Assembly (NCBI GenBank): GCA_945875585.1
Contig: CAMCLK010000021.1
Location: forward strand, 1-64,000
DNA from: Candidatus Kuenenia stuttgartensis
GTDB taxonomy: Bacteria; Planctomycetota; Planctomycetia; Gemmatales; Gemmataceae
Direction: 5' to 3'
DNA length: 64,000 nt
Both the position numbers and the translations under genes were made by a program. The notes below the pieces were generated by a model that did not search any database, was not told the origin of the DNA, and saw only the letters and a program-made list of their open reading frames with translations. Shown piece by piece: positions 25,577 to 37,191 of this stretch; position 1 is the first letter of the stretch, and each line of letters opens with the position of its first letter.

Positions 25577-28420
25577 TTACGGCAAAGGGGCAATCCAACT
25601 TCGGTTGATCTCGATCGATTTAGTATCGTTAGCGCCCGTTCCAAACGCTAACCGCTGGCTTACTGGATCGAGTGTTAGGGAATACCAAGGCCCGGCAGGC
25701 AGCGAAATTACTTTGGACGGATTGGTTGCCCCTGCGGGCCATCGCGCCACTGTGGCACCTTGCCTCGGTGACAAGCCCAAGCTCACGAGGCTGCCATCTT
25801 TGCCGTAAGCAACAGCCGTCACCCATCCACCATGGGCAGCCAAGGGCAGAGGTGGTTGGCCGACAATAGAAGGAAACGGCGCGACCTTGGGATCCGCCAA
25901 TTCCCGTGCTAAAGCTCCATCGCCCGAATTCCAGATCTTGATAGACCTGTCTGCCGAACCCGAGGCCAATTGGGCACCATCGACACTGAAAGCCAGTGAG
26001 AACACCGCGTCGTGATGTCCCTTAGGAGCGTCTTTTTCGTTAAATCCTTTGATTTCTCGCGCTAATTGGCCATTGGCCACAGTCCAAAGCTTTATTGAAC
26101 GGTCTTCTGAGGCGCTTGCCAAAATAGTGCCGTTGGGATGAAACGCCACAGCATAAATCTGTGGAGCACGTGTGTTGGGCGGAACCGGCACATGTGCTGC
26201 AATTTCACGAACAACCGTTCCCTTTTCTGAATCCCATATCCGGACCTTGCCATCGTGGCAGCCTGTGGCCACCAATTTACCATCGGGAGAAAATGACACA
26301 CACGCCACAATTGCTGGGTGCGCCAACGTTTTGCGCGGCGTTTCGGCAGCCATCCGCCAGACATCGATTCCAGCCTTGGGACCTAGTACAACAAAATCTC
26401 CTTCGGTTCCAATCCATGCTACAGCAACAGGAATCGTCACCAGCGGTAACGTTTGAAGCAATTTGCCAAATGGTTCTGCATTAGGTTGCATAGGCACAGG
26501 CGCGATAGATCGGATCTGCGTTCCCGCTGCGGTGAACAGCGCCACTATGGGAAGGCTTGGGTGAGGAACTGCGGCACGCAATCCAGATAACGGAATGGCA
26601 CCCACTAACTTGCCATCGGGAGCTGTTACTGTCAGGCCAGTAGCATTGGCAACCAGGATCTGCCCCGATTTGGCGACAACAACATCCAAAATTGGGGCGG
26701 TTTGTGGCCATGCTTTTTCCGGCATCGGCCGGCCAGCAGGAATACTTTCCAATGGTCCACGCGCCACGAGCCATGCCCCGTTCGGACTCGACCGAAGCAA
26801 CGGTGTTTTGCCTTCTTTGAACAACATGGCAATGGCAGGAACAGGAATCAATTCTGGCGGTTTCGCCTTGGTCGCTACAACCATGGTGGTTCCCTGTCCG
26901 GGCACAGCCACGGCAGTCGCGCCAACCAGACGCTTGCGGCCTACCATATCGCCTGAAGTCAGGTCCACAATTCTCACTTGATCGTCTTTACCAAGAACAA
27001 ACAACCGCTTGCCATCAGCACTTAAAGCTGCCGAAGCACTTTCTGTGATCACTGGTGAATATTTGACAATCTTGGCCTCATAAGGCTGTATGGCCGCGAT
27101 TGACTTCCCGGTAATCAGAACGCCAACCTGCCCATCGCGGGTGAAGGCAGCAGAAGTAACAGGTCCACCCGGAGCAGCAGCAGCAGGTCCGGGCTGGCCC
27201 AGAGTGTTCCACGTTTTCAGACCATCGGCTCCAACCGAAACAAGCCGATCCCTAATAGAGGCTACCGCAAGAACGGCACCTGCATGAGCCTGTGCCGGTA
27301 CTGCGTTCGGAACGTTTTTCCAAGGCATATTGGCAGCAGGTGGAGCCTCCCATGCCGCTAGCTTGCCATCGGCCAAGCCAAGCACGAGGCGATTTTGATG
27401 CCATGTTATGGATGTTACCGAAGCACCCGGCTTGAATTTACCTATAACAGCTCCCGTTGGCTGTAGAATGCTGACTTCGTCTCCCTGCGTAACAGTCCAT
27501 CCGTTACCAGGCCCGCCTTGAATCACTAGGGTTGGGGGTGCTCCTGCCACAGGAACTTCCCGCGTTGTTTCACCCTGCCCATTCAGCACGGCAAATCCTG
27601 CCAAACCACCGCCCCAAGCCACAAACCCACCATCGGGAGTAGACTCCACACGGGCCACAGCAGACTTCCCTAAGGCTTTGTTGGGAGTTGTTGGCGGGGT
27701 AACCGTACGCACCATGCCGTCAGTACCCAAGATTCCAATACCAGAAGACTGCCATACCAAGTCCTGTGCCGGACCTTCCGTTGCCGCCCATGCCGCAATT
27801 TCCTTGCCATCGGCAGCTATCAGCCAGTGGATATGGCCATCGGAATCGAGGTGCGCAATCGTTTTGGCATCTGGACTCCAGGCCAAGGCAGTGGTTTTGT
27901 CAGCCAGTGGGGATTTCAACAGTTGCTTGGTACCGCCCGGTGCCATGGCATCGAGTTGAAAGATCACCAGTCCGTCTTTGCCACCAATCGCAGCAACGGT
28001 TTTGCCATCAGCGGCAACAGAAAACGCTGGCACAGATTGGTCGGCAAGCCAAGTCTTACTTGGGACAAAACGGGGCATATCCCAGATACGAGCAGTGTTA
28101 TCGGCTCCTGCCGAAGCCAGAAGCGCACCGCTGGGAGCCACCGCAACCGATAAAACCGAGTCGGTATGCCCCTGAGGTCCGCCAAGCTGATGAAGCAAAC
28201 GGCCCGTGGATGAATCCCAAACACCTATCGTTTTGTCAAAGCTGGCTGTGGCCAGTGTTGTTCCATCTGGTGAAAATGCCACACCGTATACGGCATCTTT
28301 GTGCCCAACCAATGGCACGGCACCCGGAAGGGCTGTGGCAGGGTCTTGCCAAGCGATGACAACGCATGCCAAGGCTGGAAGCAAGGCCATGGTCAGGCAG
28401 AAGCGCGATTGGATGATCAT
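25577..28420 (-). CDS. Exported WD40-repeat protein
   Basis: A 947-aa protein with an N-terminal signal/anchor (MIIQSRFCLTMALLPALACV) followed by WD40 repeats. GHKDAVYGVAFSPDG and GHTDSVLSVAVAPSG lie near the N-terminus. A degenerate beta-propeller region occupies the centre. Clear repeats return near the C-terminus (ACVSFSPDG, IYAVAFHPNG, GHHDAVFSLAFSVDG, each followed by a W-D/W-N ending). This implies two or more propellers. Large exported WD40 proteins are a planctomycete feature; they are interaction scaffolds, partner unknown. ATG 28420 gives the signal peptide; GTG 28447 is an alternative. Confidence 0.83.
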   Translation of the reverse strand: MIIQSRFCLTMALLPALACVVIAWQDPATALPGAVPLVGHKDAVYGVAFSPDGTTLATASFDKTIGVWDSSTGRLLHQLGGPQGHTDSVLSVAVAPSGALLASAGADNTARIWDMPRFVPSKTWLADQSVPAFSVAADGKTVAAIGGKDGLVIFQLDAMAPGGTKQLLKSPLADKTTALAWSPDAKTIAHLDSDGHIHWLIAADGKEIAAWAATEGPAQDLVWQSSGIGILGTDGMVRTVTPPTTPNKALGKSAVARVESTPDGGFVAWGGGLAGFAVLNGQGETTREVPVAGAPPTLVIQGGPGNGWTVTQGDEVSILQPTGAVIGKFKPGASVTSITWHQNRLVLGLADGKLAAWEAPPAANMPWKNVPNAVPAQAHAGAVLAVASIRDRLVSVGADGLKTWNTLGQPGPAAAAPGGPVTSAAFTRDGQVGVLITGKSIAAIQPYEAKIVKYSPVITESASAALSADGKRLFVLGKDDQVRIVDLTSGDMVGRKRLVGATAVAVPGQGTTMVVATKAKPPELIPVPAIAMLFKEGKTPLLRSSPNGAWLVARGPLESIPAGRPMPEKAWPQTAPILDVVVAKSGQILVANATGLTVTAPDGKLVGAIPLSGLRAAVPHPSLPIVALFTAAGTQIRSIAPVPMQPNAEPFGKLLQTLPLVTIPVAVAWIGTEGDFVVLGPKAGIDVWRMAAETPRKTLAHPAIVACVSFSPDGKLVATGCHDGKVRIWDSEKGTVVREIAAHVPVPPNTRAPQIYAVAFHPNGTILASASEDRSIKLWTVANGQLAREIKGFNEKDAPKGHHDAVFSLAFSVDGAQLASGSADRSIKIWNSGDGALARELADPKVAPFPSIVGQPPLPLAAHGGWVTAVAYGKDGSLVSLGLSPRQGATVARWPAGATNPSKVISLPAGPWYSLTLDPVSQRLAFGTGANDTKSIEINRSWIAPLP

Positions 28421-28513
28421 GGTTTGGTATGTCCCGAGGGCAAGCACTTTCTAGAGCCCTGAGGTTACACTGCCTGCAAAGAGATGCAATCCCCCGCTTC
28501 CTTGGGCATAAAC

Positions 28514-28580: not shown

Positions 28581-31500
28581 TTAGGGAGCTACCTGGGGAG
28601 CCGGACGGAAGTTCGTCTGAATCTGCTCTTCTTCTTCCTGAATGATGATTCTCGGAGTAATCATCATCAGCAGGCTGGTGGCCTCACGGCCGTAACCGGT
28701 GTTGCGGAAGAGCCTGTTCAGGTAAGGAATCTTGCTGAGGATCGGTGGGCCGTATTCGTTACGCGCCTCGCTGAGCCGCTTAAGTCCACCCATCAGAACC
28801 GTACCGCCATCGGGTACCGCCACCGTGGTCTGCACCGTAACCGACTGGATGATCGGCTGTTGGATGAGCTGGGTGAAGGTAATGGGGTCAGAAGGATTGG
28901 GCTGGTTGAAACCGGGTTGCGGGAAGATCGGCACAACCACAGGGAAGAGATTAACTGGACCGGGCGCCAAGTTCTGCATGCTGATGTTGGGAGACAAGCG
29001 CACAGTACGGCGATCGGCGGAGATGATGGCCTGGATAGTGAGCTGGATACCGTTGAAGTACCCTTGAACCACCGGGCTGAAGGAAACGTTACCGTTGGCA
29101 AGTGTTTGCAAGCTCACGTCGATGACGAAGAACTGGGTATCGCCAACGTTGAGTGTTGCAGTCTGGCCGTTGAACAAGGTCAACTTAGGAGCCTGCATCA
29201 CGTTGGTGCGGTTATCACCCTGTGCAGCTTCAAGGAACAAGAAGACTTGGATGTCACTCAAGAACGCCAGCCCCATGCTCAATCCACCACCCGGCGCACC
29301 GAAGTAGTTGCCAAAGGCAGGATTGGTCATGTTGAAGCTGTTCTGCTTGATGGGGATGTCCAGGTCGCTGGTGAACGATCCGGCTGGCGTGATGCCACCC
29401 ACCATGTTCTTGAAGTATGGGTCGTTGATGTATCCAGCCGGTTTGTACTGGTTGGAAGTAATCATCGGCTCAAACTTAGCAGTATTGCGATCGGTCTTGA
29501 TGTTCAGATTGAAGTCCAGACCGATACGCTCATAAAAGTCTTCCGCGATGCTGATCAGGCGGATTTCCAAGGCAACTTCCTGGTCGAGCAGGCGACGCAA
29601 GTTGTTCAGCAAGTCGGCAACCTGCTCTTGGATGTTGGGTGTCTGGTTGACAACCAAGGACATGGTCAATGGATGGTACTCAATCGTACCTGAACCACCC
29701 ACCGTGCTCCACGACTGCGGTTCGATGGTGCTGGTGATGATGCGAATCAAAGCGTCTTCGGTGGTGGTCCCGATACGTTTGTTCCACTTGCCCGAGTCAC
29801 TGACAGACTGATTGCCACTGCCAGTCGACGATCCAACGGCAGTGCCACCATTGAGGCCCATGGGGGTACCGATCGGCGTGGGAGTGTTACCACCGCCACC
29901 ACCAGTGCCGCGTGTGAGAAGCGGATTGAAACTAGTCCCGCTATCCCGGCCATGGTTTTCGACAGGCAACACCAAGTCGGTAACCTGGTAGGTGACCGTG
30001 GCCAGCTTGCCACGGGCCTGAGATTCCGTGGTGATCTGAAGCACTTCATCCTTCACCACCCAGGTGAGATGAACGTTGCGCAGCATCAGATTGAGCGCGC
30101 TCTTGAGAGAAATCTGCTCGAGCTTCAAAGTAATGGGACGATCAAGGCTGATACCTTCAGCTTCGAGTGCTGCCACATCGGGGACGATGTTGATCTGGTA
30201 CATCGCCCGGATGTCTTCGAGCACATCCTTGAGTGGCTGGTTGTTGAAGGAAAGGTTGACAGGCTGATTGAGCCGGCCTTCGATTTCACGTTCAGCCACG
30301 CTCTTGCGCTGTGGGCTGGTCAGGGTGCTCAGCGAGGTGCGCTTATTGCGCCGATCGGTCATGCTTTCGCCGACATCGAGCGGTTTGTCGATGGTCAGGG
30401 CCTGACCAAACTTGTCGGTATCGTTCAAACCATCGAGGAAGAATTTCTCTTTCTCGGATTTGTTACCACGAACCGAAACAAGAGCCCTTTGGGTTTTGGC
30501 CATATTCACGGCTGCGGCAGCCATGGCGTTGTCTGGGTCCAGTTCCTGGGCCCGCATGGCATAGCTTTCAGCTTCCAGATACTTGCCTTCCTTGAAGGAG
30601 GTATTGAACAGCTTCATTTGGTCGGCAACCTTCTTGTTGCGATTTTCTTCGGCCAGCATCTTTTGGCCGATCGCATTCTTTTTGCCGTCCTTGGCCGTGC
30701 TGTCTTTGTCGAGGAATTCCTTCTGCGCTTTCAGCAACTTGAAGTGCTGCAGCCGCGATTCCACAGGTCGGCGCAACTGTGCCACCTTGTTCGCTTCCAG
30801 GCCCGCGCCTTCGAGCGCCTGAACATAATCCGAAAGGATATCGAGAGCCGCATCAGCCTGACCAGCACGGAACTTCTCGGCAGCTTCTCGCTGCGCGTCG
30901 AGACCCTGCTGCTGCATCTTGTCAAATTTGACTTTCTGCATGGCCTGAGCTTGGCTCAGGGAATCAGGCTTAGGTTCCGCACTTAGCGTTGATGGAATGC
31001 CTGGAGGAAGAACGGCCACACTACCGGGTGCCGATGGCAACGACGGCATGGTCAAACCCGGGGCGCCACCACGGACAGGAGCACTTCCAGCTTGAGCCAC
31101 TGGAGCACCTGGCAGCATGCTCGGCGTGGACAGGATTTCCTTCAGCCTCGACTGACGCTCCTTGTCCAAAAGCTTGTCGTTAACGGCCGCAAGCAGGTTC
31201 TTCGCCTGTTCGTATTCCTTGCGGTTGTAAGCGCTCACCATAGCATCGAAGGTGCGGCGGCTTTCCAAAGACTTCTGGTTGAGATCTTCCACATCAATGG
31301 TGCGGAGAACGGCTGCAGCCTCTTCCTTCACACCATAAGGACCTTGGAACGCTTCTTCAGCAAGGCGGCGAGCATTTGTGGACTGCCCGGACCGAAGCTC
31401 CATGCGTGCCTTCTCAAGAAGCGTTTTGCCCTGGCCAGCAGGCGCTTCTGCCATTGGACTGCCGGGAAAATCTGGCGTTCCTGAAGGGCCGGTCAAAGCT

Positions 31501-33620
31501 GGCGGCACTCCAATCGGACCAGAAGGACCGGTCAAAACTGGCGGCACACCGATCGGCGCACCAGAGACCACAACCGCACTAGCCCCCTTCTTCAGCCCCT
31601 TGAGCCACTCTTTTTTGGCTACAACGGCTTGCTCATCCAGACCAAAGCCACGAGCAAGGGCCATCGCCTGATCAAGCTCGCGATCTGCCTGCTCCAACCG
31701 GCCAGGAGCGTTGTCCTTACCTGCGGTCACACCAGACTGAGCAACCAACGAATCGACAGTGGCTCGCGCCTGTCGGCTTAACTGCTGCAAAACAACATCG
31801 GGCGTATCTTCACCCGGCTGAGTGACCCCACCGATTTTCTGAGCAGCCAAAGCCTTGGCGCGGGCTTCAACCAATCGGCCCTGCTTCTGCATTAAGCGCG
31901 CTTCGACCAGAAGACCGGAAGCGGTGCCTGCAGGTGGCGTCAATTGCGAAGGAATCATGGCTGCTGCCGGGGCATTACCCCCTACACGGCTGGCCACCAC
32001 AACTTCCAAATCTTTGCGGAGAATTGAGGGAGAATCTTCACCCGGGCGATCGAACGTCACCCGCATCGACTCAACCTGCTCCAGCAACTTACGACTGGCT
32101 GCGACATTACCAGACTTGAGCGCCTGACGCGCCTCAGCCAATTGGGCACGAGCTTGCTTGCTCAGTGGATCGCCAGCGCCAACAACCTTCATTTGCGCTG
32201 CCTGAATTTCGGCGATCAGCTTTTCTGGACGCTCGCCTGAATCCCACATATTTGTGGAACCACGCAATTGACGTGCTTTGTAAGCCAGCTTGGCGGCCTG
32301 GTCCAAATCGCCAGATTGCTGAAACTTGCGCGCTTCCGCCATCAGGCGAACCACTTCGGCCTGATCCTTGCGTGCGCGGGCACGTTCCACATCCGCCTTC
32401 AAACGATCGGGACTATCTTCAAACAACCCGTACCGCGCACCTGGTGCTGCCTTGGCCTTGAGGGCGAGTTGCAATGCCTCGTCTACCTTGCCTTCAGTCA
32501 ATGCACGGCGACCAGCCACCAGCATTTCGCGAGGCGACTGCTTGTTGGTAAGCGAAAGATCTGGCTTGGCGGAAGCAGTAGCATCCGTTTTGGGAGCCGC
32601 AACGGATTCCGCGGGCTTTTCCATCACAGGCTTGGCGGCCAATTCCACTGCTGGCGGCTTAGCTGCGGGCTTGTTGGTGAAAGTGGGCGTGCCCAGTGCG
32701 CGCGCTGTCTGAATCTGCTTCAGCACCTTGGCAGGGCTATCGGGCGTGAACATGAATGTGGTTGCGCCGGCCAAACGATCAGCCTGCTTGGCCAAAGCCT
32801 CAGCGCGGTCAAAATCGTTAGCTCGCAAAGCCTGATGCGATGCCGCCAGCAAGAATTGAGGATCGCGCTGGTATTTAGCAAGATCCGCTCGGAGCTTTTG
32901 CGGGCTGTCTTCGTTGGGAGCAAAGGCAATGCCTTTGGCGTCCACCTGAGCCGCCAAGGCCGTGGCTTCGTCAAACTTGCCAATCAGCATCAAATTGCGA
33001 GCCACAACAAGCATCGAACGTGGATCGCCTTTGCCCGCGCCAGAATTGCTTGGTTGAACAGGCAGATTGTCAAGTACAGGCATCGCCATTGGCGAAACAG
33101 CAACAGGAGCTTTAGGAGTTGGTGCAGCGACAGGCGTAGGGGATGATTGGCCCTGCAGGCGCGCCAATCGGTCCTGATCTGCGGCGCTGAGGAACTGTTC
33201 GTTCACCGCCAAACGCTTCAGCATATCTGTGGCGGTTGTTTTCTGGCCGGCAGCGAAAAGCCGTTCAATGGCGTCCAACTGAGAGGAGCCCTTTTTGCGG
33301 GCTTCCAGCGCAGCCTTATTGGCTTCCACCAGGGTCGCCAATTCAGTGACTTCAACAGGACTCAGGTCTGATTGACGAGCCTGAGCATCGCCAATGGCCT
33401 TGCGCGCTCCTTCGTAGTCGCCACGGCGCTGACACTCAATCGCAGCGTTCAAGGCCTGATGACCACGCGACGGTGCTGTTGCAGACCAGTGCAAACCCGC
33501 ATCAATCCCGCGATGCGCAGGCACCCCGGCATGGACCGCTTGCCCCATCAGGCTCGCAACAAGAGCACAGCTCAGCCAACGCCGGCCACGCCACCGAATA
33601 TCTCTCTTGAATACAGCCAC
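28581..33620 (-). CDS. Very large secretin (type II/III secretion or pilus type) with N-terminal repeats
   Basis: A 1679-aa outer-membrane channel protein, about twice the length of ordinary secretins. GTG 33620 follows AAAGGAGG at six bases and gives a signal peptide (LSCALVASLMGQAVHAG). Residues ~200-620 hold six copies of a ~50-residue helical unit (L-x-x-AR...G-x-x-x-x-A...LA), most ending in an EDSP-x-x-L motif. A Pro/Ala linker and further TPR-like helices follow. An N0/STN-like domain (LNQPVNLSFNNQPLKDVLED, ~1110-1200) and the secretin core come last (VPDGGTVLMGGLKR, PPILSKIPYLNRLFRNTGYG, LLMMITPRII). It probably forms the outer-membrane gate of a secretion or pilus system. The other machine genes are not adjacent. 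Confidence 0.9.
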   Translation of the reverse strand: MAVFKRDIRWRGRRWLSCALVASLMGQAVHAGVPAHRGIDAGLHWSATAPSRGHQALNAAIECQRRGDYEGARKAIGDAQARQSDLSPVEVTELATLVEANKAALEARKKGSSQLDAIERLFAAGQKTTATDMLKRLAVNEQFLSAADQDRLARLQGQSSPTPVAAPTPKAPVAVSPMAMPVLDNLPVQPSNSGAGKGDPRSMLVVARNLMLIGKFDEATALAAQVDAKGIAFAPNEDSPQKLRADLAKYQRDPQFLLAASHQALRANDFDRAEALAKQADRLAGATTFMFTPDSPAKVLKQIQTARALGTPTFTNKPAAKPPAVELAAKPVMEKPAESVAAPKTDATASAKPDLSLTNKQSPREMLVAGRRALTEGKVDEALQLALKAKAAPGARYGLFEDSPDRLKADVERARARKDQAEVVRLMAEARKFQQSGDLDQAAKLAYKARQLRGSTNMWDSGERPEKLIAEIQAAQMKVVGAGDPLSKQARAQLAEARQALKSGNVAASRKLLEQVESMRVTFDRPGEDSPSILRKDLEVVVASRVGGNAPAAAMIPSQLTPPAGTASGLLVEARLMQKQGRLVEARAKALAAQKIGGVTQPGEDTPDVVLQQLSRQARATVDSLVAQSGVTAGKDNAPGRLEQADRELDQAMALARGFGLDEQAVVAKKEWLKGLKKGASAVVVSGAPIGVPPVLTGPSGPIGVPPALTGPSGTPDFPGSPMAEAPAGQGKTLLEKARMELRSGQSTNARRLAEEAFQGPYGVKEEAAAVLRTIDVEDLNQKSLESRRTFDAMVSAYNRKEYEQAKNLLAAVNDKLLDKERQSRLKEILSTPSMLPGAPVAQAGSAPVRGGAPGLTMPSLPSAPGSVAVLPPGIPSTLSAEPKPDSLSQAQAMQKVKFDKMQQQGLDAQREAAEKFRAGQADAALDILSDYVQALEGAGLEANKVAQLRRPVESRLQHFKLLKAQKEFLDKDSTAKDGKKNAIGQKMLAEENRNKKVADQMKLFNTSFKEGKYLEAESYAMRAQELDPDNAMAAAAVNMAKTQRALVSVRGNKSEKEKFFLDGLNDTDKFGQALTIDKPLDVGESMTDRRNKRTSLSTLTSPQRKSVAEREIEGRLNQPVNLSFNNQPLKDVLEDIRAMYQINIVPDVAALEAEGISLDRPITLKLEQISLKSALNLMLRNVHLTWVVKDEVLQITTESQARGKLATVTYQVTDLVLPVENHGRDSGTSFNPLLTRGTGGGGGNTPTPIGTPMGLNGGTAVGSSTGSGNQSVSDSGKWNKRIGTTTEDALIRIITSTIEPQSWSTVGGSGTIEYHPLTMSLVVNQTPNIQEQVADLLNNLRRLLDQEVALEIRLISIAEDFYERIGLDFNLNIKTDRNTAKFEPMITSNQYKPAGYINDPYFKNMVGGITPAGSFTSDLDIPIKQNSFNMTNPAFGNYFGAPGGGLSMGLAFLSDIQVFLFLEAAQGDNRTNVMQAPKLTLFNGQTATLNVGDTQFFVIDVSLQTLANGNVSFSPVVQGYFNGIQLTIQAIISADRRTVRLSPNISMQNLAPGPVNLFPVVVPIFPQPGFNQPNPSDPITFTQLIQQPIIQSVTVQTTVAVPDGGTVLMGGLKRLSEARNEYGPPILSKIPYLNRLFRNTGYGREATSLLMMITPRIIIQEEEEQIQTNFRPAPQVAP

Positions 33621-34049: not shown

Positions 34050-37000
34050 TCAAAATGGTTGATTGATGCCAAACCAGAATTGGGGCCTTGTCTCCTGCCC
34101 CAATGTCTGGGCAAAGTCGAATCGGAATGTGGCGCGTTCGACAAAACTCAACAGCACAGCATCAAAGCGCACGCCCGCGCCTAGGGCATGCGCTACCGGG
34201 CCCGCGGAATGCCCAGCTGCCAGCGCATCACCCACATCATAGAACAATGCCATTTGGATTGTCCTTAAGCCCGCAAGGTGATCAAAAAAATCTGTTTCTA
34301 GATGCCTAACCAACGGTATACGCCACTCGACAGACCCCACCCAAACGGTGCTGCCCTGTCGCTGGGCCAAATCAAATCCACGGAACGATTCACCACCCCC
34401 TAGCGGGAAGAAGGCTCCCCTGCCGGGGAGGGCTGTGCCCCCATAGGCTCGCATGGCTACCTTGGTTTCAGCCAAAGCCAAGGCCAATGGGCGAACCGCT
34501 TCGCGCACACGCCCCTCGGGCAGAATTTCAGAAAGATCGGGCAGATGCTTGACAAGCACACCCTGTGCCCATGTGCGGAACATGCCGGAGTAAACATCGA
34601 GGTCGGCTCCACCACCTTCCATCACCGCATCGAATTGCCAGCCCATACTGGGGTCCCAATATGGCGTTTGGCGGTTGCGTCTGATGTGCCAGCCTGCCGT
34701 GGTGGTGTTGGAATATCGGACCGCACCTTGTGGTAGTTGGCTGCTATAAGGCAGAAAGTTACCCGAATAGGTGGTGTACAATTCTGTAAAATCAAAAGGA
34801 AGCTGATAAATACTGGTGTTCGCAAATGTGATATTGCGGGTAAACAGAGTGGCACGGACCGGGGAAGACTGTCCTGCCTCGAACTCATAGACCCTTTGCT
34901 CGGCATTGAATCCAGTTTGCCAGGCGCTGTCAGGCCAATGCTCGAAGGTCCCATCGAACCCAATAACAACATCGCGATAGTCGGTTCGGTAGGCACCGTA
35001 AATACCGCCCTGAAACTCCTGAGAGCGGTACGCTCCTGCCCTTGCACCCAACATTGTGGTGCGTGTGTACCACGGATTGCTGTAAGTGGCACCGTAAAGC
35101 CAAGGCCCAACAATCACGTTCCAGCGATCGTTCGCAGTTGTCAGGTCGTTTTCATCTGCCGTTGTGTAAAGAAACGTAGGGCGAAAATTCGGAGCCACGT
35201 CTGTGTGGTTGTTATGCAGCCTCGGATCAGGCAAAACCATATCCGGATCCACCATCACAGATTCGGGTTCCACAGGCAGGGTTACCATCACCTGAACCTT
35301 GCCATCCGGCAGAGGCGTCACTTCGGCAGGCGGATTATCACCGTGCCACTCAAGGCCAGTGGCAACGGGTATCCGAATTGGATAGCCCATTTGTCCGGGA
35401 AGCCTTATACCCAGACTGGTAGCTTCGTCGGTTGGCCCCGTTCGGGAAATCACCACCCGAATTCGGGTTTGCTCCTGCCGCCTCCGACTCCATGCAAGGC
35501 TTCTGGGCCCTTTACCATCGATGGTTTCAACACGGTCTAGGGCCCAATCGCATTGGCCCGGTCCGCGCCACCACCTGTCGAAGAATCCTGTCCAGTCCTG
35601 ACCGGTAAATTTGGCAAGTTCACGCTCAAAGTCGGCTGCCCGCAAGATGCGGTAACGGTAATCACGCTGAACCGATCTTAAAAACTCCAGAAATGCAGCT
35701 TCTCCCATGCGCTCTGCCAGAATGTCGAACACTTTGCTCGATTTGTCGTATGCCGTGCCGAACAGTAACGCCAGATTCCCATGTTCCTGCATGCCACGTT
35801 GAACAGGGCTGTCAAACCCCGCATGGGCCAACCCGGACCAACCACGATTGCGATAACTGTCTCGCGGAATGTTAGGAAGCCAGCCAAGCCCGGTGGGAAA
35901 ATTCAGCATGGCATGATTTCTGCCACGGCGCTTGTCTAGCAGACGGTGGCTGAGTGCCGTGGCCAACCCTTCATCCATAAACGGCTCGCGGTACCCGTCG
36001 GTACCCACGGCGTTGTACCACCATTGATGGCACGTTTCATGAATAATGAGATATTCAATAAATCCATCGGCAAGCGCCGGCAGTGTAAAAACCCGCTCAT
36101 CGATCATGATGATCGAGCCGCCTTCGTTGCCATTCCAGCCAAAATACGTTTCGGCAATGGTCAATTCCGGCCACGGATAAGCCCCCATCCAAGAGCTGTA
36201 AGTGGTGATGGCATCAGCAGCAAGCGCTGCGATTTTTTCGGCATGTTGTTTATGGTGTTCAAGTGCCAAAACCCGCACCACAACCGGATCGCGCCCGGCA
36301 ACAGGGGCCTTGGCGGTTGCGACGATATATTTGCTGCTGACCGCGAGGGAAAAATCACGGACACCCCAAGCTTCGAGGCTGATTTCACGCCAACCGGGGC
36401 CAGCCGGCACTTCTGCGACTTTGGCTCCCGATGAAGCCAACTCCCATCCATCCGGAATTTCGATGGCGGCGCGGTAATGCCCCGCCTCATTGAGAAATGG
36501 CTGGTGCCATGGAAGAAAGGGAGAAGGCTGCCAGCCTGTTTCAGCACCATAATAGGCAGGTATTGGCAACCATTGCATCAGGTTTACCACACCATTCCAA
36601 AGGCCCCAGCGCCCCTGTTTTTCATCGAGCCGCACCTGGAATACCAACCGAATCGTCACTTTCCCGCCCGGGCCAACCGGATTGGGAAGTGAAACCTCCA
36701 GATCGGTCCCTGTTGGGCCCCCTAACCGCGCTGGCTGCTCTACGGTGCGATCACCGTCAACCAACGCCACAGTCTGAAATTCCAGAGCAGGGCGCTTAAC
36801 GCCCAAAGCATCGCGCGGGTCAAGCCGTAGCATTTCCAATGTTTTTGCCATCCCGCCCTCCTCTGAAGGCGGAAGCACAAATGCCGCATGGGCCTGAATG
36901 ATTACCCGATCAACAGCAGGCCCACCGGGGTGGGTCCAAATGATGTTCTCGCTGACTTCAACTAAACGTTTGCCCGGGTCGATGCGGGCCCGAACGTCGA

Positions 37001-37109
37001 ATACCGGCAAGTGTGGCGGATATATCGGACGCGCCGCGGGCAATACCGTAGGCGGAGCGGGGTCACCACCCAACGTCATTCCCAGCAGAAACACGATCCC
37101 CAAAACCAT
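34050..37109 (-). CDS. M1-family metallopeptidase fused to a C-terminal Omp85-like beta-barrel
   Basis: A single 1019-aa frame. ATG 37109 follows GAGG at seven bases and starts a hydrophobic signal sequence (MVLGIVFLLGMTLGG). Residues ~30-620 are an M1 aminopeptidase: the GNEGG substrate region (~327), HETCHQWW with zinc His357/His361 and catalytic Glu358, and third ligand Glu380 exactly 18 residues on. Residues ~640-1019 are beta-rich and match Omp85/BamA-type barrels: FPLGGGESFRGFD (~901), VEWRIPL, ALFYDVGDA and a C-terminal ...GINQPF ending in Phe. The barrel would place the peptidase at the outer membrane. It is four to five times larger than ordinary barrel-only relatives of this length class. 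Substrate unknown. Confidence 0.88.
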   Translation of the reverse strand: MVLGIVFLLGMTLGGDPAPPTVLPAARPIYPPHLPVFDVRARIDPGKRLVEVSENIIWTHPGGPAVDRVIIQAHAAFVLPPSEEGGMAKTLEMLRLDPRDALGVKRPALEFQTVALVDGDRTVEQPARLGGPTGTDLEVSLPNPVGPGGKVTIRLVFQVRLDEKQGRWGLWNGVVNLMQWLPIPAYYGAETGWQPSPFLPWHQPFLNEAGHYRAAIEIPDGWELASSGAKVAEVPAGPGWREISLEAWGVRDFSLAVSSKYIVATAKAPVAGRDPVVVRVLALEHHKQHAEKIAALAADAITTYSSWMGAYPWPELTIAETYFGWNGNEGGSIIMIDERVFTLPALADGFIEYLIIHETCHQWWYNAVGTDGYREPFMDEGLATALSHRLLDKRRGRNHAMLNFPTGLGWLPNIPRDSYRNRGWSGLAHAGFDSPVQRGMQEHGNLALLFGTAYDKSSKVFDILAERMGEAAFLEFLRSVQRDYRYRILRAADFERELAKFTGQDWTGFFDRWWRGPGQCDWALDRVETIDGKGPRSLAWSRRRQEQTRIRVVISRTGPTDEATSLGIRLPGQMGYPIRIPVATGLEWHGDNPPAEVTPLPDGKVQVMVTLPVEPESVMVDPDMVLPDPRLHNNHTDVAPNFRPTFLYTTADENDLTTANDRWNVIVGPWLYGATYSNPWYTRTTMLGARAGAYRSQEFQGGIYGAYRTDYRDVVIGFDGTFEHWPDSAWQTGFNAEQRVYEFEAGQSSPVRATLFTRNITFANTSIYQLPFDFTELYTTYSGNFLPYSSQLPQGAVRYSNTTTAGWHIRRNRQTPYWDPSMGWQFDAVMEGGGADLDVYSGMFRTWAQGVLVKHLPDLSEILPEGRVREAVRPLALALAETKVAMRAYGGTALPGRGAFFPLGGGESFRGFDLAQRQGSTVWVGSVEWRIPLVRHLETDFFDHLAGLRTIQMALFYDVGDALAAGHSAGPVAHALGAGVRFDAVLLSFVERATFRFDFAQTLGQETRPQFWFGINQPF

Positions 37110-37191
37110 GCCAGTACCTCATTCCCTCTCAAGTCGGACACCCATAGACCATTTGGTCGAAACCTGTCAACCAATCCTCAACTGGCATAAG

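Follow-up and report, generated by a model that had tools for sequence, protein, structure and literature searches.

A planctomycete protein joining an M1 peptidase to an Omp85-type β-barrel in one reading frame

Introduction

Members of the Omp85 superfamily are best known for the assembly or movement of proteins, and PlpD showed that an enzyme, too, can make use of the barrel. The 2014 census of the superfamily distinguished ten subfamilies, including the patatin, WD40, no-N-terminus and 'Metallo' classes, none of them described with an M1 peptidase, and it accepted subfamilies that have no POTRA domain (PMC4104836). Heinz and Lithgow, the authors of the census, call the 'Metallo' class a metalloprotease, citing PF00149 (PMC4104836), and the label has been repeated in later work (PMC11116518); PF00149 is, however, Metallophos, a model of metallophosphoesterases and not of peptidases. 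In PlpD, the patatin–Omp85 protein, the enzyme domain has been shown experimentally to be periplasmic, although it was earlier taken to be secreted (PMC11116518).

Here we describe a protein in which an M1 peptidase precedes an Omp85-type barrel. We found no description of such a combination in the literature that we searched (the main texts of open-licence papers), and the passages retrieved by term from papers on planctomycete outer membranes and proteomes did not mention it. The earlier note on this DNA did not recognize the combination as a described family, which holds against both the main Omp85 census (PMC4104836) and the open-licence literature. Very probably, public databases already contain proteins of this family that have drawn no comment.

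Results

The window (the whole stretch of DNA analysed, 64,000 nucleotides) contains an M1–Omp85 fusion gene at 34050..37109 on the minus strand. The uninterrupted frame of 1019 amino acids reported in the earlier note, which gave no strand, is there: it begins with ATG, has no internal stop, and is kept as a single frame in relatives. Reading the same interval on the plus strand gave 15 stops and was rejected as the wrong strand. Alignment with the closest relative supports the same start codon. Residues 1–20 (37050..37109, minus strand) form a putative export signal, a short hydrophobic stretch without basic residues; many homologs carry clearer Sec-type signal peptides than the fusion does. 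Just upstream of the start lies a weak candidate promoter, TTGACA-18 nt-TATGGG (37141..37170, minus strand), which was not called by a consensus promoter scan. Both the element and the sequence around it show strong conservation with the closest relative, and the element may be a promoter with a short leader. No RNA elements were found.

We analysed the peptidase part by sequence profile and by structure. Residues 30–625 (35235..37022, minus strand) correspond to domains I–III of M1 peptidases and make up an M1 gluzincin with all zinc ligands, the catalytic Glu and the catalytic Tyr. The Pfam model Peptidase_M1 (PF01433) matches residues 310–513 with an E-value of 1.2e-12 (48.4 bits against a cut-off of 27.7), and the same model was found in 41 out of 41 homologs. 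In a Foldseek comparison with solved structures, the peptidase part of the AlphaFold2 model falls with IRAP, ERAP1 and ERAP2 (E about 1e-22 to 1e-19 over ~630 columns), the best value being 1.7e-22 over ~630 columns (IRAP/ERAP1). As had been proposed from the sequence, the active site is complete. The stretch HETCHQWW occupies residues 357–364; its zinc motif HETCH (residues 357–361; 36027..36041, minus strand) has H357 and E358 in 79 of the 82 homologs and an invariant H361 (82/82). The third zinc ligand, E380 (35970..35972, minus strand; 82/82), is separated from the motif by 18 intervening residues, and the catalytic Tyr, Y454 (35748..35750, minus strand), is likewise present in all 82; it lies in YDKSSK, which aligns with YEKGAE of E. 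coli PepN. In the profile alignment with PepN, H357/E358/H361 fall on HEXXH, E380 on the third ligand, Y454 on the catalytic Tyr and E329 on the Glu of GAMEN.

Two features set this peptidase apart. The exopeptidase motif GxMEN is replaced by NGNE (residues 326–329; 36123..36134, minus strand), while barrel-less cousins have GGMEY; the Glu itself, E329, is kept (80/82 homologs). In addition, the helical domain IV usual in M1 peptidases is absent. Given NGNE in place of GxMEN, the specificity of the peptidase may differ from that of classical aminopeptidases.

Some homologs have lost part of the zinc site. In three loci, L031, L094 and L123, HETCH is replaced by QATCH; these three group in a single, fully supported clade. 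L090 and L092 have QATCH as well. When loci were matched by contig accession, four genomes proved to carry both a QATCH copy and an intact one (L092, on the contig of L031, with L058; L090 with L057; L094 with L056; L123 with L061). E380, Y454 and the barrel are retained in the QATCH copies. The change from HExxH to QAxxH suggests that these second copies are probably pseudoenzymes, and copies without a zinc site offer a natural control for the role of the barrel.

The structure of the whole protein was predicted by AlphaFold2 with an alignment of 82 homologous sequences (mean pLDDT 92.3, pTM 0.90); a prediction from the single sequence (pLDDT 33) was discarded. In the model, M1 domains I–III extend to about residue 625 and are followed by a structured junction and then by 16 long strands at residues 664–1016. 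The check for a barrel after residue 640 suggested in the earlier note was thus run, and the model has both the 16 strands and the intact M1 site. The model was built without a membrane and is silent on the side at which the peptidase ends.

The barrel, residues 664–1019 (34053..35120, minus strand), belongs to the Omp85 superfamily. NCBIfam Omp85_fam (NF047779) matches residues 898–1019 with an E-value of 3.5e-5 (23.4 bits, the curated cut-off being 200), and Pfam Omp85 (PF01103) matches with 2.5e-4 (21.7 bits, below the curated cut-off of 24); the latter model was found in 23 of 41 homologs (E up to 0.01), at best with 4.9e-11. A profile of the barrel alone found one solved POTRA-barrel protein, 9ccg (E 5e-5), and aligned by hhalign with the BamA of this genome (E 2.5e-5). 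All of the 50 best Foldseek matches were M1 structures, with no solved structure among them matched by the barrel fold, so the barrel is identified by its sequence profiles, strand count and motif. The motif, the loop-6 RGF (residues 910–912; 34374..34382, minus strand), lies between strands 11 and 12, within LGGGESFRGFD (residues 903–913), and has R910 in 82/82 and G911 in 72/82 homologs. The last strand and C-terminal signal (34053..34082, minus strand) end in Phe; F1019 is present in 81/82 homologs and replaced by Tyr in the remaining one. The sequence does contain all the barrel signatures named in the earlier note (LGGGESFRGFD, VEWRIPL, YDVGDA and the terminal Phe).

No POTRA domain was found in the fusion; profile matches to POTRA in this genome fall only in BamA (contig C26, locus L139), which has five of them and is also the sole other match to PF01103 in the genome. 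Omp85 proteins are commonly said to have one POTRA or more, but since subfamilies without POTRA were accepted in the 2014 census (PMC4104836), its absence does not bar membership of Omp85. No other M1 protein was matched in the genome, the assembly of which is 94% complete, so that absences are uncertain.

Between the two parts lies a junction, residues 621–663 (35121..35249, minus strand), which is structured and not a long flexible linker (pLDDT about 90–95 across the AlphaFold2 blocks). It is also conserved: with a mean identity of 48%, residues 626–663 are the most conserved stretch after the catalytic domain. The closest barrel-less cousin stops at this junction. This cousin, G092, the best found outside the class, aligns along the whole peptidase to just past an NNxW motif near residue 636, and ends ~23 residues after the end of the alignment.

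The same domain order, for which the earlier note had proposed a search in planctomycetes, proved to be widespread and conserved across many members of one class. Matches were found in 54 of 59 related genomes, most of them near full length and in one stop-free frame of ~1000–1120 codons; identity to the fusion protein was 31–76% among the first 41 matches. When 84,980 species were scanned, 480 relatives emerged; of the best 80 of these 480, nearly all carry a planctomycete label, and in most of them the M1 part and the barrel share a single frame. Beyond these 80, the fusion could also occur in more distant phyla. Three records among the best 80 are labelled 'Bacteroidales', 'bacterium' and 'uncultured bacterium'; all three are metagenome bins, and two of them (L075 with G022, L104 with G042) appear to be contigs placed in the window's own family or order. 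Within the class, 54 of 149 genomes gave a match to the barrel profile, in frames that also contain the M1 part, and no barrel copies without the peptidase were found there except for short frames in fragmented assemblies or at the ends of contigs. Across 392 genomes of the phylum, the full-length matches listed are confined to the class, and beyond it the M1 part alone was matched. Plasmid records gave M1 matches only, the best of which covers about half of the protein.

M1 and barrel distances among homologs are correlated (r 0.89), and the tree mainly follows family and class codes; the two parts were already joined in the ancestor of the members sampled. This is most simply explained if a barrel was added once to a planctomycete M1 peptidase of this type and the resulting gene then passed down mostly vertically, with losses. 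Other classes of planctomycetes have M1 cousins without the barrel (L128, 1119–3527; L129, 2928–5441; L137, 1030–3531); these have the GGMEY motif and a short amphipathic-looking tail, and the gene after each of them encodes a hydrophobic, probably multi-pass protein.

The neighbourhood of the gene is not conserved: no neighbour family occurs at more than 8 of 80 loci, and no linked envelope-assembly genes are kept nearby at these 80 loci. Downstream of the fusion in the window, a gene at 28581–33620 (minus strand) encodes a secretin of 1679 amino acids, the N-terminal part of which is long and rich in repeats; it also has an STN-like stretch. An operon with this secretin was considered and rejected, the adjacency being found in just 7 of 80 loci, in nearer relatives only. 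Downstream of the secretin, at 25577–28447 (minus strand), is a gene for a 956-amino-acid protein with two runs of WD40 repeats.

Discussion

We consider it fairly probable that the fusion protein as a whole is an outer-membrane-anchored periplasmic aminopeptidase. It would be exported by Sec, and the ordinary BamA of the genome would insert its C-terminal Omp85-type barrel in the outer membrane. The N-terminal M1 zinc aminopeptidase would then stay packed on the periplasmic face of the barrel, and at the outer membrane it would trim peptides or unfolded ends of proteins from their N-termini, with incoming nutrient peptides or debris of envelope proteins as candidate substrates. The barrel, which would take the place of the C-terminal tail found in the barrel-less M1 cousins, may serve mainly as an anchor, and perhaps in addition as a gate through which peptides enter.

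In Omp85 barrels, strand 1 begins at the periplasmic face, so a domain that precedes it would be periplasmic unless carried through. The structured, conserved junction suits a peptidase fixed on the inner face of the barrel better than a threaded passenger, and both points, together with the precedent of PlpD, favour the anchored periplasmic enzyme. Against this reading count the short, uncharged signal peptide, the NGNE motif and the missing helical domain IV. The earlier note proposed that the peptidase is tied to the outer membrane or surface and placed it in the periplasm or outside; the fusion to a barrel stands, and the evidence favours the periplasmic over the external placement without settling it.

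It seems unlikely, though it would agree with the order of enzyme and then Omp85 barrel, that the peptidase reaches the cell surface by way of the barrel, as once proposed for type Vd secretion, and digests external proteins or peptides there. PlpD was long described in this way (PMC4104836; PMC11116518), and a surface peptidase might suit polymer-degrading planctomycetes. However, a folded domain of ~600 residues would need to be threaded, the junction is structured and conserved with no long flexible linker that could span the pore, and the prototype itself, PlpD, retains its enzyme in the periplasm (PMC11116518).

We are more doubtful still that the barrel functions as an Omp85 insertase or translocase whose peptidase trims or clears clients in outer-membrane protein quality control. 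The loop-6 RGF motif and Omp85 membership would allow this, and the QATCH copies, which keep the barrel after loss of the zinc site, point to some non-catalytic role in those lineages. But the fusion lacks POTRA, the usual client-handling domain, the genome has a separate BamA, and there are no conserved envelope-assembly genes nearby. A speculative variant, to which we give slightly less credence again, is a one-protein device for uptake and processing, in which the POTRA-less barrel would admit peptides through a gate, the aminopeptidase fused to it would trim them on the inner face as they enter, and the pseudoenzyme copies would keep only the barrel or a binding role. Finally, a join of two genes by sequencing or assembly error, as the earlier note had allowed for, can be dismissed and the frame taken as genuine, because the same single frame is conserved in dozens of separate assemblies, complete genomes included.

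The fusion adds to the Omp85 superfamily a peptidase that lacks POTRA and is conserved across a large bacterial class with a poorly understood envelope, and it offers a way to test whether these barrels have been put to new use simply as anchors for enzymes or as gates.

We compared the fusion with the known systems nearest to it. Like the PlpD-type patatin–Omp85 proteins (type Vd; PMC11116518), it has an N-terminal enzyme and then a 16-strand Omp85 barrel in one chain; in contrast to them, its enzyme is a zinc peptidase and not a patatin lipase (there is no patatin match), it has no POTRA between enzyme and barrel where the PlpD type has one, and it is found in planctomycetes. With the 'Metallo' Omp85 subfamily (PMC4104836) it shares a metal-dependent enzyme domain N-terminal to an Omp85 barrel, but it is a true M1 protein (PF01433) with no match to PF00149. 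The BamA of its own genome also has an Omp85 barrel with the loop-6 RGF motif; that protein, however, has five POTRA matches and no enzyme domain, and the two barrels are only remotely similar in sequence. With the M1 aminopeptidases (APN, IRAP, ERAP1 and E. coli PepN) the fusion has in common domains I–III, HEXXH-X18-E and the catalytic Tyr, and it differs from them in having NGNE instead of GxMEN, no helical domain IV, and predicted attachment to the membrane by a β-barrel.
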